NCBI RefSeq assembly: GCF_003096415.1
Contig: NZ_QEKH01000014.1
Location: 62,001-126,000, forward strand
DNA length: 64,000 nt
Source: Victivallis vadensis
Lineage (GTDB): Bacteria; Verrucomicrobiota; Lentisphaeria; Victivallales; Victivallaceae
Reading direction: 5' to 3'
This document shows, one piece after another, positions 13,648 through 56,995 of this stretch; position 1 is the stretch's first letter; every line of letters starts with the position of its first letter. The notes beneath the pieces are model-generated. The model was not told the DNA's origin, did no database searches, and was given only the letters and a program-made list of their open reading frames with translations. The position numbers were made by a program, and so were the translations under genes.

Positions 13648-14769
13648 TTATCGTTCCACTTTCCAGTATTCGTTCTCATTGTTGATCAGCGCGGCGGTCG
13701 GCACGCTCTCCACATGGCCGTCCAGCCAGATCGCATTGCTCCGTCCGGAATGCCGCGCATACGGATACGCATCCGCCCATCCCCAACTGATCAACTGCCC
13801 CCAGCCCGTCTCCGCCGTGGAATCCGCCGCCATCAGCGTCCGCGACGGCTGCGAAATCCTCGAAAGTTTCTTCCCGAGCGCAGTATTGCTCGCCCCGGCA
13901 CCGAGATGCATGTAGTTGATCCCGTACATCACCCATGTATGGCGGTTGCTGTATTTCGCATAATATTCCTCGTTCGCAAGACTCCGCACCGGGCAGCGCG
14001 TGATCAGGCCCTTATCCGCCGAATGCGCGCTCCACGCCACGTTGGTATCGTTGTTGAAAAAATAAACCGTGGTAATCTGGATCAGCCAGTTCGGATAGAT
14101 GCCCGCCCCGCTCGGCGACGGGTAAAAGCCATCGTAGTCCCCATGATAGAAAGTCATCAGTCTGGAAATCTGGCTCTGGTTGCTCACGCAGCTGATCGCC
14201 CTCGCCTTGTCCCGCGCCTTGTTGAGAGCCGGCAGCAGCATCGCCGCCAGTATCGCTATGATCGCAATCACCACGAGCAGCTCAATCAGCGTAAAACTGC
14301 AGCGGGATAGTCTCCGACGGAGGATTTCGCTCCAGCCGGAGCGACCAGCGCTTTCGCCGCTGGACCACGACCGGCAAGGTGCCGGTGCCGGGTACGGGGC
14401 GGTGCAGTGCAAAGACGCGGTCGATCGACGGCGGAAAAAAGATCCGCAAAAACGTGAAGTTGTCTTCCCGCTTTTCTGCGGAAAAACAACTTCACGTTTT
14501 TGCTCCGACTTGCCGCCTGCAGAGCATTGGCAGAGGCGTGAGAGCTTGCGGGAAATGAGAGAGATGTTCGGATTGGTTGGTACGGGGAGAGATGCGGCGC
14601 TGGTCGCCGCTTTCTCTCCCCCGAACCCCTCTCTTTTACGCAGAGCGGAAACAAGGGACCGGAAGGTATGAAGTGACGGCACGCATGGAATAATACCGTT
14701 CAGAAATTTGATCAGTGTGTAATAAACCGCTGACCTGCCGCCGGAATGGAAACGCTTCTCTTCGAACAT
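13648..14769 (-). CDS. Type IV pseudopilin (H-X9-DG type) with a 158-residue repeat-encoded leader
   Basis: The C-terminal 215 residues are a normal pseudopilin: [20 protein letters not shown] from F159, a globular domain, and the [14 protein letters not shown] motif (H-X9-DG). The part before F159 is abnormal. The ATG at 14769 has a good CAGGAG site and lies 3 bases after the GntR stop codon, so it looks native. A normal leader would have 5-15 residues, yet here the frame runs through the 278-bp repeat at 14371-14648 for over 150 residues rich in Arg, Ser and Pro. The frame is never broken. Either a very long leader is made and cut off by prepilin peptidase, or the gene is damaged and restarts internally. 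The residue before the cleavage site is Ser, not Gly. Confidence 0.75.
14371..14648 (-). repeat. 278-bp repeat, copy 1, inside a pseudopilin leader
   Basis: This block matches 44250-44527 with no net length change. I count about ten substitutions in the first 146 positions, none in the central 58, and more in the last 74. Both copies have the same orientation relative to the pseudopilin frame and the same frame is open through both. One end carries CCGGCACCTTGCCGG. It sits between the start codon and the FTLIELL codons of the host gene. Confidence 0.9.
14446..14503. repeat. 58-nt palindrome in repeat copy 1
   Basis: Perfect 18-base arms (14446-14463 and 14486-14503) flank a partly paired centre, so a stem of about 26 bp with a short loop is possible. 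The 58 bases are identical, in gene orientation, to 44395-44452. Confidence 0.95.
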
Positions 14770-26728: not shown

Positions 26729-26846
26729 ACCTGCCTCCATTTCCGTTTTCTGTGATAATTTAAGATTTTTTCGCGGAAAATTCAAGGTTTATTCTAAAAA
26801 AACGATTATTTTTAAAGTTGCAACCACTAAATATGGAGTGAATCTC

Positions 26847-28154
26847 ATGAAAACTTATCTTGAACCGGCCAGAACCCTTCCCGTCGTCGGAACCTGTGAC
26901 GTGCTTGTCGCCGGAGCCGGTCCCGCCGGAATCGGCGCCGCGCTCGGAGCCGCCCGCTGCGGCGCGTCCGTGTTCCTGCTCGAAGCCGCCAACTGCGTCG
27001 GCGGCATGGCCACTGCGGGCATGATGTCGCACTGGTGCGGCGGCACCGAGTCGCCGCTGCTCGACGAAATCTTCAAGCGCACCAAATCCTCGCCGCTGCT
27101 CCCACCCGCGACCAGCGAACGCGCCAACCCGTGGGCCACCGCGCACGAAGCGCAGAAAACGGCGGTACAGGAGCTGCTGCTCGAAGCCGGCGTGACTCTT
27201 CAGTACCATACCCGCATCGCCGGGGCCGTGGTGGAGGACAATACCGTCAAAGGAGTCATCACCGAAAGCAAATCCGGCCGTGAAGTCATCCTCGCCCACA
27301 CCGTGATCGACGCAACCGGGGACGGCGATGTCGCGGCAGCGGCAGGAGCGGAATTCGTGCTGGGCCGTCCTGAAGACCACGGCTGCCAGCCGGTTACGCT
27401 GATGTTCCGCATCGGCGGGGTCGATCACAGCCGCGCGATCTTCCCCGGCAGTTTTGAAAGTCTGGTCGACGTGCCGAAAGGGGAAATTCAGGCGCTCGGC
27501 CATGAACACCTCCCCTTCCCCGCCGGCCATGTACTGCTCTATCCCGCGCCGCTGCCCGGCGAAGTCTGCGTGAATATGACCAACGTGACCGGTGTGAACG
27601 CGACCGACGTGCGCGAACTGACCCGCGCCGAGCTGACCTGCCGCGAACAGATGGTGAAGATCGTGCAGTTCCTGCGCGAATTTGCACCGGGTTACGAAAA
27701 CTGCTACGCCGTGACCAGCGCCGCCAACGTCGGAGTCCGTGAAACCCGCCACTTCAAGGCTCTTTATCAGCTGAATGAAACCGATATCGTCGAAGCCCGC
27801 ACTTTCGACGACTGGATCGCCACGCGCAACCATTTCAACTTCGACATCCACAACGTGAAAGGGCCGGGGCTGGACGCCAACGGGGCACAGCACAAGTTCC
27901 GCTCCAAAGGGAAGTACACCATCCCGTACCGCAGTTGCGTCCCCGAAAAGCTCGACGGCCTGCTGCTCAGCGGCCGCAACATCGACGGCACCCACAAGGC
28001 GCACTCCAATTTCCGGGTGATGCCGATCTGCCTGAACATCGGCCAGGGCACGGGCGTCGCCGCCGCCCTCGCCGCCCGCAACAACATCCCGGCCCGCGCC
28101 GTAGATGTCAAAGCCGTACAGGCGGAGCTGATGAAAATGGGCATCCGGCCCTGA
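26847..28154 (+). CDS. FAD-dependent oxidoreductase (FAD_oxidored family)
   Basis: A 435-residue flavoprotein. The N-terminal Rossmann motif is VLVAGAGPAGIGAALGAARC with the acidic LLEAA end, a VGGMATAGMMSHW segment follows, and IDATGDGDVAAAAGAEF is the second nucleotide motif. The family oxidises varied small molecules, often near glycan genes, and the substrate is unknown. The ATG at 26847 follows GGAGTGA at a good distance. It faces away from the PocR-AraC gene, which may control it. A repeat block begins 4 bases after its stop codon. Confidence 0.87.
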   Translation: MKTYLEPARTLPVVGTCDVLVAGAGPAGIGAALGAARCGASVFLLEAANCVGGMATAGMMSHWCGGTESPLLDEIFKRTKSSPLLPPATSERANPWATAHEAQKTAVQELLLEAGVTLQYHTRIAGAVVEDNTVKGVITESKSGREVILAHTVIDATGDGDVAAAAGAEFVLGRPEDHGCQPVTLMFRIGGVDHSRAIFPGSFESLVDVPKGEIQALGHEHLPFPAGHVLLYPAPLPGEVCVNMTNVTGVNATDVRELTRAELTCREQMVKIVQFLREFAPGYENCYAVTSAANVGVRETRHFKALYQLNETDIVEARTFDDWIATRNHFNFDIHNVKGPGLDANGAQHKFRSKGKYTIPYRSCVPEKLDGLLLSGRNIDGTHKAHSNFRVMPICLNIGQGTGVAAALAARNNIPARAVDVKAVQAELMKMGIRP

Positions 28155-28158
28155 CACC

Positions 28159-28203
28159 GGCGGCAAGGTGCCGCTGCCGGGGCGGCAAGGTGCCGCTGCC
28201 GGG
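28159..28203 (+). repeat. Two tandem copies of a 22-bp GC-rich unit
   Basis: GGCGGCAAGGTGCCGCTGCC-type units occur at 28159-28180 and 28181-28202. The same unit appears at 44143-44164 and, inverted, near 56303-56327. Each can fold on CGGCA-AGG-TGCCG. Confidence 0.9.
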
Positions 28204-28397
28204 TGCGCACGCCAATGCCCCTCCGGGGGGCGTGCGGGCAACCAGCATAGGCAAAGCATTGGTCGGTCTGCATAACCACTTACACGGCATATAAATAAGG
28301 CCGTAATACCATTTACGCGGCACATAAGTAAGACTACGTCGCCTTATACGCGGCGCACAACAAGCGCGGGTTCGCGCCGCGAACGAATGTGAGGGAA

Positions 28398-28418
28398 TTA
28401 CTTGCCTTTGGCAAGTAA
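28398..28418. repeat. Hairpin with covarying arms, copy 1
   Basis: TTACTTGCC and GGCAAGTAA are 9-base perfect arms around TTT. The matching place in the other copy has different bases that still pair (see 56161-56182). Confidence 0.85.
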
Positions 28419-28650
28419 CGAGGAACGGTAGTGACGAAGCCGAACGTAGTGAGCGAAGCCCCCCTGGCGCAGCCCGCAACGCGGGCGATGAAGGGTTGGC
28501 CGCCGCAGGCGGACAAGTAAGCGGCGAAGCCGCGCCCGCGAGCGGAAGCGCTCTGCAACCGGACTGGCCTCCGCAACCGGCGAGGGGGTCCGGGGGACGT
28601 GCGCGACGTCCCCCGGAGCCATCCGCGGGCCGGAGGTCCGGCGCTCACCA

Positions 28651-28721
28651 CCCTCCGGGCACCCTGCCTGTTCTTGCGCTTAAAAGTTGTTACCCTCCGA
28701 GCGCCCTGCCTGTTCTTGCGG
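28651..28721 (+). repeat. Direct repeat, two 29-bp units 42 bp apart
   Basis: The unit CCCTCCGxGCxCCCTGCCTG plus TTCTTGCG occurs at 28651-28679 and 28693-28721 with a few mismatches. Confidence 0.85.
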
Positions 28722-28849
28722 CAATGCGAAGTTGAATATAAAACTCACGTGCGAATTGAAAGCGAAGATGAATCTCCGCACTCCAAGGACGCTTCGCGTC
28801 GCAGGAGCAAGCCTCCAAGGGGAAATCCCATTTCCGTAAACTTGCATAC

Positions 28850-29228: not shown

Positions 29229-29544
29229 CCGCATGGAATTTTCCTGTTGCAATACAGGCCATCCGGTGCTATATTGCAGGAAACTGTTCAGGAGAAAACA
29301 TCATGTATTGTATCCGCTGCGGCCTGCAATTGCCGGATGACGCCAAGAGCTGTTCCCGGTGCGGCACTCCCGTTCCCGGCATGGTTCCGCATGGAATTTT
29401 CCTGTTGCAATACAGGCCATCCGGTGCTATATTGCAGGAAACTGTTCAGGAGAAAACATCATGTATTGTATCCGCTGCGGCCTGCAATTGCCGGATGACG
29501 CCAAGAGCTGTTCCCGGTGCGGCACTCCCGTTCCCGGCATGGCT
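29229..29544 (+). repeat. 158-bp tandem duplication of promoter and gene start
   Basis: Bases 29229-29386 and 29387-29544 are nearly identical. The unit contains a promoter (TTGCAA, 17 bases, TATATT at 29247-29275 and again at 29405-29433), an AGGAG site, and the first 28 codons of the zinc-ribbon gene. As 158 is not a multiple of three, the first copy leaves frame after codon 28 and only the second leads into a full gene. Confidence 0.95.
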
Positions 29545-44090: not shown

Positions 44091-44142
44091 GGCGACCAAT
44101 CGGACGACCGTTTCATATAACAGAAGGAATTGAACGTATGGC

Positions 44143-44164
44143 GGCAAGGTGCCGCTGCCGGGTA
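44143..44164 (+). repeat. Single 22-bp GC-rich unit
   Basis: The same GGCAAGGTGCCGCTGCCGGG-type unit as at 28159-28202, placed immediately after the start codon of the disrupted pseudopilin gene. Confidence 0.85.
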
Positions 44165-44249: not shown

Positions 44250-44527
44250 CCGCTCTGCGTAAAAGAGAGGGGTTCGGGGGAGAGAAAGCGGCGACTTGCG
44301 CCGCGTCTCTCCCCGTACCAACCGATCTGAACATCTCTCTCATTCCCCTCAAGCTCTCACGCCTTGGCCAATGCTCTGCAAGCGGCAAGTCGGAGCAAAA
44401 ACGTGAAGTTGTTTTTCCGCAGAAAAGCGGGAAGACAACTTCACGTTTTTGCGGATCTTCCTTCCCCGCCGGCCGACCGCGCCTCTGCCGATCGACCGTC
44501 CCGTACCCGGCACCGGCACCTTGCCGG
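44250..44527 (+). repeat. 278-bp repeat, copy 2, inside a pseudopilin leader
   Basis: Counterpart of 14371-14648, of exactly the same length and read in the same frame: both translate as [15 protein letters not shown], then [20 protein letters not shown] and later PYPAPAPCR. Substitutions but no net insertions or deletions separate them. Confidence 0.9.
44395..44452. repeat. 58-nt palindrome in repeat copy 2
   Basis: Arms 44395-44412 and 44435-44452 pair perfectly over 18 bases. All 58 bases equal those of copy 1 in gene orientation. Confidence 0.95.
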
Positions 44528-55568: not shown

Positions 55569-55602
55569 ATGAAAAGCCGATTTCACAATGCCCCAGCAGT
55601 TT
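55569..55602 (+). pseudogene. Displaced 5' end of the pseudopilin gene
   Basis: GGAAG lies 7 bases before an ATG at 55569, only 11 bases after the preceding stop codon, where the next operon gene should start. The codons read MKSRFHNAPAV and then enter the inverted repeat at 55603. The frame stops soon after, within the element. The pseudopilin body resumes only at 56353. This looks like the original start, cut off by the insertion. Confidence 0.6.
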
Positions 55603-55979
55603 CGCATAATAGCAGGTATGTTAAGCGACAAGGCGGCTTTTCTGCATTGCAATTCATTAACATTCTTTAGGTTAGGCATTTTGTTCTCCGTTGTAAGTCG
55701 GCTTATGTTCACTTCTATGCCCGTTACAGGCAACAACTCAAAGGTAATGTTTGCTTGTCCGGCCCAATGCCGTCCGGTGTCAACCTTGGAGTGCGGAGCC
55801 CGAAGGGCTTGCCCCCGCTCCGCGGGAGTAAGCTTCAGCTCCGCTTTCAAATCTCGCGTGATCATGCAGTTACTCATAAGTTCAATTCGCCTTTCCATGT
55901 CATTACAGGTCACAAACCGGGTGCCTGTCGTTTGCGGATGGCTCCGGAGGGCCTTTTTCAAGGCCTGCCCGCCTGATCG

Positions 55980-56330
55980 CCCGTCCGGACCTCCCCGCTC
56001 GCCTCGGAACTCCCGTTGACTTGCGAAGCACTTCCATTCGCGGGCGCGGCTTCGCCGCTTACTTGTCCGCCTGCGGCGGCCAACCCTTCAACGTTCGCGG
56101 CGCTCACTACGCCAGGGTGGCTTCGCTCTCTACGTTCGGCTTCGTCACTATCGTTCCTCGTTATTTTGCTGCCGCAAAATAATTCCCTCACATCCGTTCG
56201 CGGCGCTGACCGCGCTTATTGTGCGCCGCATAAGTGGTTATGGAGACCAACCTTCGCTTGCCTGTGCCGTCCGCCGCGCGACCCCGAAGGGCGTAGAGCG
56301 CGCACCCGGCAGCGGCACCTTGCCGCCCGC
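55980..56330 (-). repeat. Long repeat family, copy 2
   Basis: Inverted counterpart of 28159-28600, inside the 750-bp element. Read on the minus strand it has the same landmarks in the same order. Differences cluster in hairpin loops and arms. Confidence 0.8.
56161..56182. repeat. Hairpin with covarying arms, copy 2
   Basis: TTATTTTGC and GCAAAATAA are 9-base perfect arms around TGCC. The aligned hairpin at 28398-28418 has TTACTTGCC and GGCAAGTAA, so several positions changed on both sides and pairing was kept. Confidence 0.85.
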
Positions 56331-56347
56331 TTAACATACCTGCTATT

Positions 56348-56995
56348 ATGCGTCGGAATTTCACTCTGATTGAGCTGCTCATTGTGATAGCGATGATCGC
56401 CATTCTTGCCGCCATGCTGCTTCCCGCCCTGAACAAAGCGCGGGACAGGGCCCATGCCATCCGTTGCGCCTCCAACCTCAAGCAGATCGGTAACGCACAC
56501 ATGATGTATTCCAATGACAATCAGGACTTCGCGGTTCCGGCCACCTGGGGACCGGGAGACGGCACCTCCTGGGACCGCAATCTCGGCACTTATTTCGGCA
56601 GGACCAAAGACACCATGAACTATTCCAGATTCCTCCAGTGCGGCTCCCATGTTCAAGTCAGCGCGCTCACGTCATTCAACAACCGTCGCAGCTACGCCCT
56701 CAACGCCAGTTTGCACTGCATTCACAACAACTGGGAGAATGGAAAACCGCAAAAATACACCATGGTCCGGAATCCGGGCTCCAAATTCGACACCAAGGAT
56801 TATCACCATCCCGAAAACGTCATCAACTCGGGAGCACAGGTCCTGATCGCAGTGACCTGGTACCGCGACAAAGACCTTCAATACGGTTACCCGCATTCCC
56901 ACGGCGGCAATCTTCTGTTCTGTGACGGTCACGTCGGAATACGGTACCGGACACCGGGAGAATTGAAGGAAGAAGAATACAAGCTCGACAAATAA
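56348..56995 (+). CDS. Type IV pseudopilin (H-X9-DG type), start codon supplied by the inverted repeat
   Basis: A 215-residue pseudopilin: MRRN, then [20 protein letters not shown], a globular domain and [17 protein letters not shown] (H-X9-DG). The ATG and the first base of codon 2 onward belong to the 25-bp inverted repeat, and there is no Shine-Dalgarno in front of it. The frame is right and gives a leader of normal length like that at 49126. The native start was probably at 55569. Residue -1 is Asn. It is followed after 28 bases by the large secreted protein. Confidence 0.85.

Follow-up and report, generated by a model that had tools for sequence, protein, structure and literature searches.

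A dispersed multi-helix repeat with covarying stems in Victivallis vadensis and its occurrence in apparent pseudopilin flip-switches

The stretch of Victivallis vadensis DNA analysed here (64,000 nt, hereafter the window) carries two copies of a hairpin-bearing repeat that belongs to a large dispersed family, and selection very probably maintains the pairing of its stems, as judged from paired base changes in this genome and in other genera. The explanation that we tentatively favour, at somewhat less than even confidence, is a dispersed repeat, not autonomous, that uses its folded strand when it is copied and travels as a passenger in switches of pseudopilin genes.

Copies of the element in the genome

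The initial annotation had proposed that two diverged repeat copies keep a hairpin through paired base changes, and both hairpins were recovered where it had placed them. Hairpin 1 of the first copy lies at 28398-28418 (+) and reads TTACTTGCC-TTT-GGCAAGTAA, and that of the second lies at 56161-56182 and reads TTATTTTGC-TGCC-GCAAAATAA; the repeat runs on the minus strand there, on which the hairpin is TTATTTTGC GGCA GCAAAATAA. In the simplest alignment the two stems differ by the exchange of one C-G pair for T-A, the insertion of a T-A pair and the loss of a C-G pair, in agreement with the claim that several positions differ on both arms, and the loops measure 3 and 4 nt. The flanks, GAGGGAATTA and AACGAGGAACG, had been described as nearly unchanged and are in fact identical in both copies. 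An intrinsic terminator was ruled out, as hairpin 1 is not followed by a T run on the element's strand.

Whole-genome searches of the genome holding the window (5.2 Mb in 87 contigs) recovered at least 55 copies, and every copy examined was intergenic according to a simple codon-usage gene caller. The hairpin 1 stem is unbroken over 8-9 bp in 52 of the 54 listed copies, the exceptions being one decayed (L146) and one truncated (L152); three copies differ solely at the loop-closing pair, which is C-A in L144 and L177 and T-G in L148. Three versions of the hairpin occur in this genome, namely TTACTTGCC-3 nt-GGCAAGTAA, TTACTTGC-4 nt-GCAAGTAA and TTATTTTGC-4 nt-GCAAAATAA. Near the truncated L152 (C3:199561), which is composed of hairpin 1 and the core, there is a CRISPR-like array with the repeat GTTTCTAATCCACTACGGTTGGAGGGGAAC, at a distance of about 150 nt.

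Two subtypes are distinguished by their 3' tails: 29 copies are T-type and 22 are P-type, while the remaining three are incomplete, either through truncation or because a contig ends within them. The window copy at 28398 is T-type; the whole element occupies 28155-28790 (+), with approximate ends, begins at the stop codon of a FAD-oxidoreductase gene (26838-28154) and has no pseudopilin gene downstream. Its ends were placed at the points, about 265 nt upstream and 400 nt downstream of position 28420, at which other copies cease to give coverage. In congeners the orthologues of the FAD-oxidoreductase gene have no such element next to them, although gene order differs there too. The ends of T-type copies are modular, nearly all of these copies are without flanking inverted repeats, and no target-site duplication was recognised by eye at their ends because the modules are mosaic. 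The genes upstream of T-type copies lie on the same strand in 15 cases and on the opposite strand in 13, which indicates no orientation preference relative to neighbours. Of the 22 P-type copies, by contrast, 19 are followed by a pseudopilin gene on the same strand, and in one further case, the window copy at 56161, the pseudopilin gene lies on the other side, reversed. A phage origin of the element was rejected, since a scan of viral contigs with the linker pattern returned 0 matches.

The resemblance of the element to REP, REPIN and BIME sequences lies in its tens of dispersed, intergenic, palindromic copies and their mosaic modules, and mobilisation of a REP/REPIN element by a RAYT (Y1) transposase would account for such dispersal. 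The initial annotation had suggested a search for a Y1-type, REP-associated transposase, but the Y1_Tnp profile (PF01797) gave 0 matches in this genome, which is 99.5% complete, whereas 5 of 14 control genomes were matched. The element is also far longer than REP, spanning 400-600 nt and containing five or more helices rather than a single short palindromic unit, its linkers are kept and its stems are replaced wholesale between species. A REP/RAYT origin is therefore largely refuted and retains very little probability. MITE-like non-autonomous elements are likewise small, devoid of open reading frames, multi-copy and missing at orthologous places in congeners, but T-type copies lack terminal inverted repeats, and neither a target-site duplication nor a partner transposase was found for the element.

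Several other repeats were observed in the window. An unrelated 216-nt repeat occurs at 14433-14648 (+) and 44250-44465 (-), 94% alike and with a large hairpin (GCAAAAACGTGAAGTTGT...), each copy upstream of another pseudopilin gene (14295- and 43765-). A module GGCGGCAAGGTGCCGCTGCC is found at 28155-28204, 44140-44163 and 14370-14393, and also in tandem and alone; its variant CCGGCAAGGTGCCGG is again paired on both sides. At 29229-29544 there is a tandem pair of 158-nt units with 99% identity, and a long minus-strand coding stretch is present twice, at 31.8-35.4 kb and 37.1-40.7 kb, in diverged versions that are 75-84% alike.

Paired changes across helices and genera

The element consists of a core of about 180 nt within 400-600 nt and contains at least five helices, hairpin 1 being one of them and resting on both sequence and covariation. 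In the window copy, helix 0 (28350-28380, +) pairs GCGGCGC with GCGCCGC around a variable loop, its columns pairing across copies, with an alternative inner GCGC/GCGC hairpin possible. Helix X (28462-28495, +) joins CCCT (28462-28465) to AGGG (28492-28495), enclosing CCCGC AAC GCGGG at 28473-28485, and appears in other copies as CTCC/GGAG, CTCT/AGAG or CTTC/GAAG. Hairpin 2 (28496-28516, +) reads TTG..CCGCC GCA GGCGG..CAA, with CGGGC/GCCCG elsewhere, and hairpin 3 (28521-28533, +) reads GCGGC GAA GCCGC, with GGGGC/GCCCC or GGCCC/GGGCC elsewhere.

An alignment of 25 copies from this genome, almost invariant outside the stems, has 99.1% of the cells of the five helices paired, with double-sided changes in 10 of 26 pairs (75 cells). 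When the partner was slid by 1-3 columns, at most two such pairs, 12 cells and 48% pairing were obtained, and none of 500 shuffles reached the observed pairing. The covariation test on aligned genomic copies that had been suggested earlier thus places paired changes well above slid and shuffled controls, and across the copies unpaired changes at hairpin 1 were not found as often as paired ones. Copies carry the helix versions in free combination, a sign that recombination or gene conversion takes place between copies. Owing to this exchange, the double changes within one genome amount to few independent events, and other species were therefore compared.

A covariance model built from these copies (R1) was searched over 78 genomes of the family and matched 12, including six of the nine genomes of the same genus (this one included) and all five of genus g17; the family genomes without a match, most of the rest, are a natural negative control. 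A broader model (R2) searched across the class matched 14 of 198 genomes, all in that same family. Matches fall in four genera (g1, g17, g18 and, as one marginal match, g15), with none in other families of the class, and the public records that carry the linker pattern are Lentisphaerae MAGs. In these relatives the linkers GCCGCGAACGNATGNGAGGG, CGAG, CGAAGCCGAACGNAGTGAGCGAAGC and GGCG..TGA remain recognisable while hairpin 1 is rebuilt, among others as CTCCTTTGCC/GGCAAAGGAG, TTTGCCGG/CCGGCAAA, TTCTGCAGG/CCTGCAGAA, ATCAGCAGG/CCTGCTGAT and GTCACCGGA/TCCGGTGAC. Twenty-five g17 copies aligned by plain MAFFT, made without structure, have 96.2% of cells paired and double changes in 17 of 28 pairs (105 cells), against at most 47% pairing, five pairs and 13 cells in the slid controls. 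As pairing is kept in an alignment made without reference to structure, the structure itself is shown.

Such changes could also arise with no selection on the fold, if DNA template switching in quasi-palindromes produced them and gene conversion spread them. Template switching is a documented mechanism that can yield paired changes without selection (PMC8794818), and the multi-base paired changes with almost no one-sided intermediates, together with the shuffling of versions among copies, are what it would predict. The arms of helix X, however, are separated by about 25 nt, and although their changes affect isolated pairs, they still match in 49 of 50 copies; one-sided stem changes left unrepaired are rare; and helix positions and linkers persist across genera despite unrelated stems. 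Template switching may well be how paired changes arise here, but it is insufficient, because it leaves this persistence unexplained, and as a full account it is improbable. Covariation is not confined to one helix, and it is found again in other genera whose stems are unrelated in sequence. Selection on the structure is therefore very probable, and passive debris, which the initial annotation had called unlikely from two copies, can be set aside.

Apparently invertible segments beside pseudopilin genes

The P-type window copy at 56161 lies inside a 750-bp segment (55603-56352) bounded by perfect 25-bp inverted repeats, an apparent flip-switch for a pilin-like gene which, from its sequence, we infer to be OFF at present. 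The left inverted repeat, a putative recombination site, is CGCATAATAGCAGGTATGTTAAGCG at 55603-55627 (+), and its perfect copy on the right (56328-56352, -) holds the ATG of the pseudopilin gene at 56348-56995 (+), which has a weak Pfam DUF1559 match and no ribosome-binding site in the present orientation. The interior (55628-56327) reads on the minus strand through the P-type element and then a ribosome-binding site and leader ORF, an OFF arrangement relative to the pseudopilin gene. The start of the leader-peptide ORF (55603-55679, -), with its ATG at 55679 after ACAACGGAGAACAAA, shares the frame of the pseudopilin only once the segment is inverted: in silico inversion joins ACAACGGAG-ATG and a 27-residue leader in frame to the pseudopilin at 56348. 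Other P-type loci already display this order of ribosome-binding site, leader and pseudopilin, and the repeat encodes the NIPGIM part of the leader. A candidate promoter, TTCACA-17-CATAAT, spans the left inverted repeat at 55582-55610 (+) with 10 of 12 consensus matches. A promoter outside the segment and shared by all inverton loci was ruled out, as a good -35 was found at the window locus only.

About 22 copies share the pseudopilin-associated tail, and several of them lie in either orientation within segments bounded by matched inverted repeats. Comparable site pairs were found at several other loci of this genome and at eight in the congener G005, giving 15 listed pairs across the two genomes; in one of these, L180, a true site is coupled with a sequence that matches by chance. 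In 13 of the 15 the right site precedes FTL (FTLIELL) by 29 nt, which places the crossover inside the leader-coding sequence. The 5-nt spacer is the same within a pair in 12 of the 15 and differs between loci, as expected if recombination requires a matching core. Element-bearing segments of G005 measure 463-468 bp; in most of them the pseudopilin is on the reversed side, whereas two show the ON order. ON and OFF loci occur within one genome at different loci, no single locus having been seen in both states, and both orientations occur in the two genomes. Serine and tyrosine recombinase domains gave 6 and 13 match places, respectively, none linked to the inversion sites.

The presence of several copies in such bounded segments beside pseudopilins in two genomes might suggest that the hairpin element forms part of the inversion machinery. 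Short segments of about 113-125 bp next to pseudopilins (C16:88864 and C17:10951) nevertheless carry the same kind of sites without the element, which is thus not needed for inversion, and the 29 T-type copies and those of genus g17 have neither sites nor a pseudopilin; we consider a role of this kind very unlikely. On the passenger explanation favoured above, pseudopilin switches would carry the element along, where it would provide the ON transcript with a long, structured 5' leader, and inversion would take away the ribosome-binding site and leader to give the OFF state, as in the window.

Two side observations concern these sites. The short pairs without the element (L230, C16:88864-88988; L232, C17:10951-11063) are possible minimal invertons. 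Five contig ends (C8:167821, C16:191, C26:1, C45:140 and C2:272086) lie no more than about 200 nt from an inversion site. Segments present in both orientations may have broken the assembly there, although repeats could cause the same.

Nature of the folded strand and relation to known systems

Compensatory covariation beyond controls, found both in this genome and in g17, does not separate RNA from single-stranded DNA. A structured noncoding RNA, with T-type copies as small-RNA genes, P-type copies as structured 5' leaders regulating pseudopilin translation and selection on the RNA fold, is the main alternative and carries appreciable weight, though well short of an even chance. It is consistent with a multi-helix architecture whose linkers are kept across genera, with the sense orientation of most P-type copies to their pseudopilin genes and the inverted arrangement of one more, with a fold that beats shuffles (z about -2.7) and with a promoter-like site reading into the invertible segment. 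Against it, both strands of the element fold equally well, no promoter-like site was found at the T-type window copy, and T-type copies follow no orientation rule. G-U accounts for no more than 1.2% and 0.9% of the paired cells in the two alignments, and a share of about 1% is low for an RNA; this is easier to reconcile with DNA, or with both strands, than with a single RNA strand, but is only a hint. The counts of G-T and A-C cells (14 vs 8) involve too few events and single out no strand.

Searches of Rfam likewise speak against a known RNA family, which was ruled out: the window has no match at the gathering threshold, a copy has none at E<=1, and copies in relatives gave weak, chance-level matches only. 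Acido-Lenti-1 (RF01687), reported in Lentisphaerae (PMC2864571), is also a conserved multi-helix element of the same phylum, but it differs from the present element, which is mosaic and of very high copy number; cmscan of copies from this genome and from relatives returned nothing for Acido-Lenti-1 up to an E of 1. That the element is a new structured RNA family serving as 5' leaders of phase-variable pseudopilins, inversion exchanging a folded sense leader, ribosome-binding site and signal peptide for antisense, we regard as rather doubtful; it would couple an RNA regulator to a DNA switch at many loci of a single genome.

According to the tentatively favoured explanation, the element would be a dispersed, non-autonomous repeat of one Victivallis/Lentisphaerae-type family, selection would act on its folded single strand, most likely DNA exposed during copying of the element, and this strand would be recognised by a trans-acting enzyme. 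Several points count against it: no transposase or other enzyme is tied to the element and its ends are modular; single-stranded linkers kept across genera are also expected of a functional RNA; and at pseudopilin loci in the ON state the element always reads in the sense of the gene.

Invertons are invertible promoters, for example those of Bacteroidales (PMC8748976, PMC11892184). The segments described here resemble them in their length of a few hundred bases, short inverted repeats, occurrence in both orientations, adjoining surface-structure gene and identical spacer within a pair. They differ in that the crossover falls within the leader-peptide coding sequence, so that inversion moves the ribosome-binding site, start codon and leader, and in that the segment carries a 400-nt multi-hairpin repeat. 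Searches of open-access PMC papers yielded nothing on phase variation, pseudopilins or inversion of this kind in Lentisphaerae. Invertons and dispersed hairpin repeats are each known; what is new is their combination and a crossover inside a prepilin leader sequence.

If these readings are right, gut bacteria that have received little study possess a large family of structured repeats not described before, together with a set of DNA flip-switches that toggle pilin-like proteins by relocating the reading-frame start. Since a genome has about 55 copies and stems are replaced in pairs across genera, the family would offer a natural test of whether hairpin covariation is produced by selection or by template-switch mutation.
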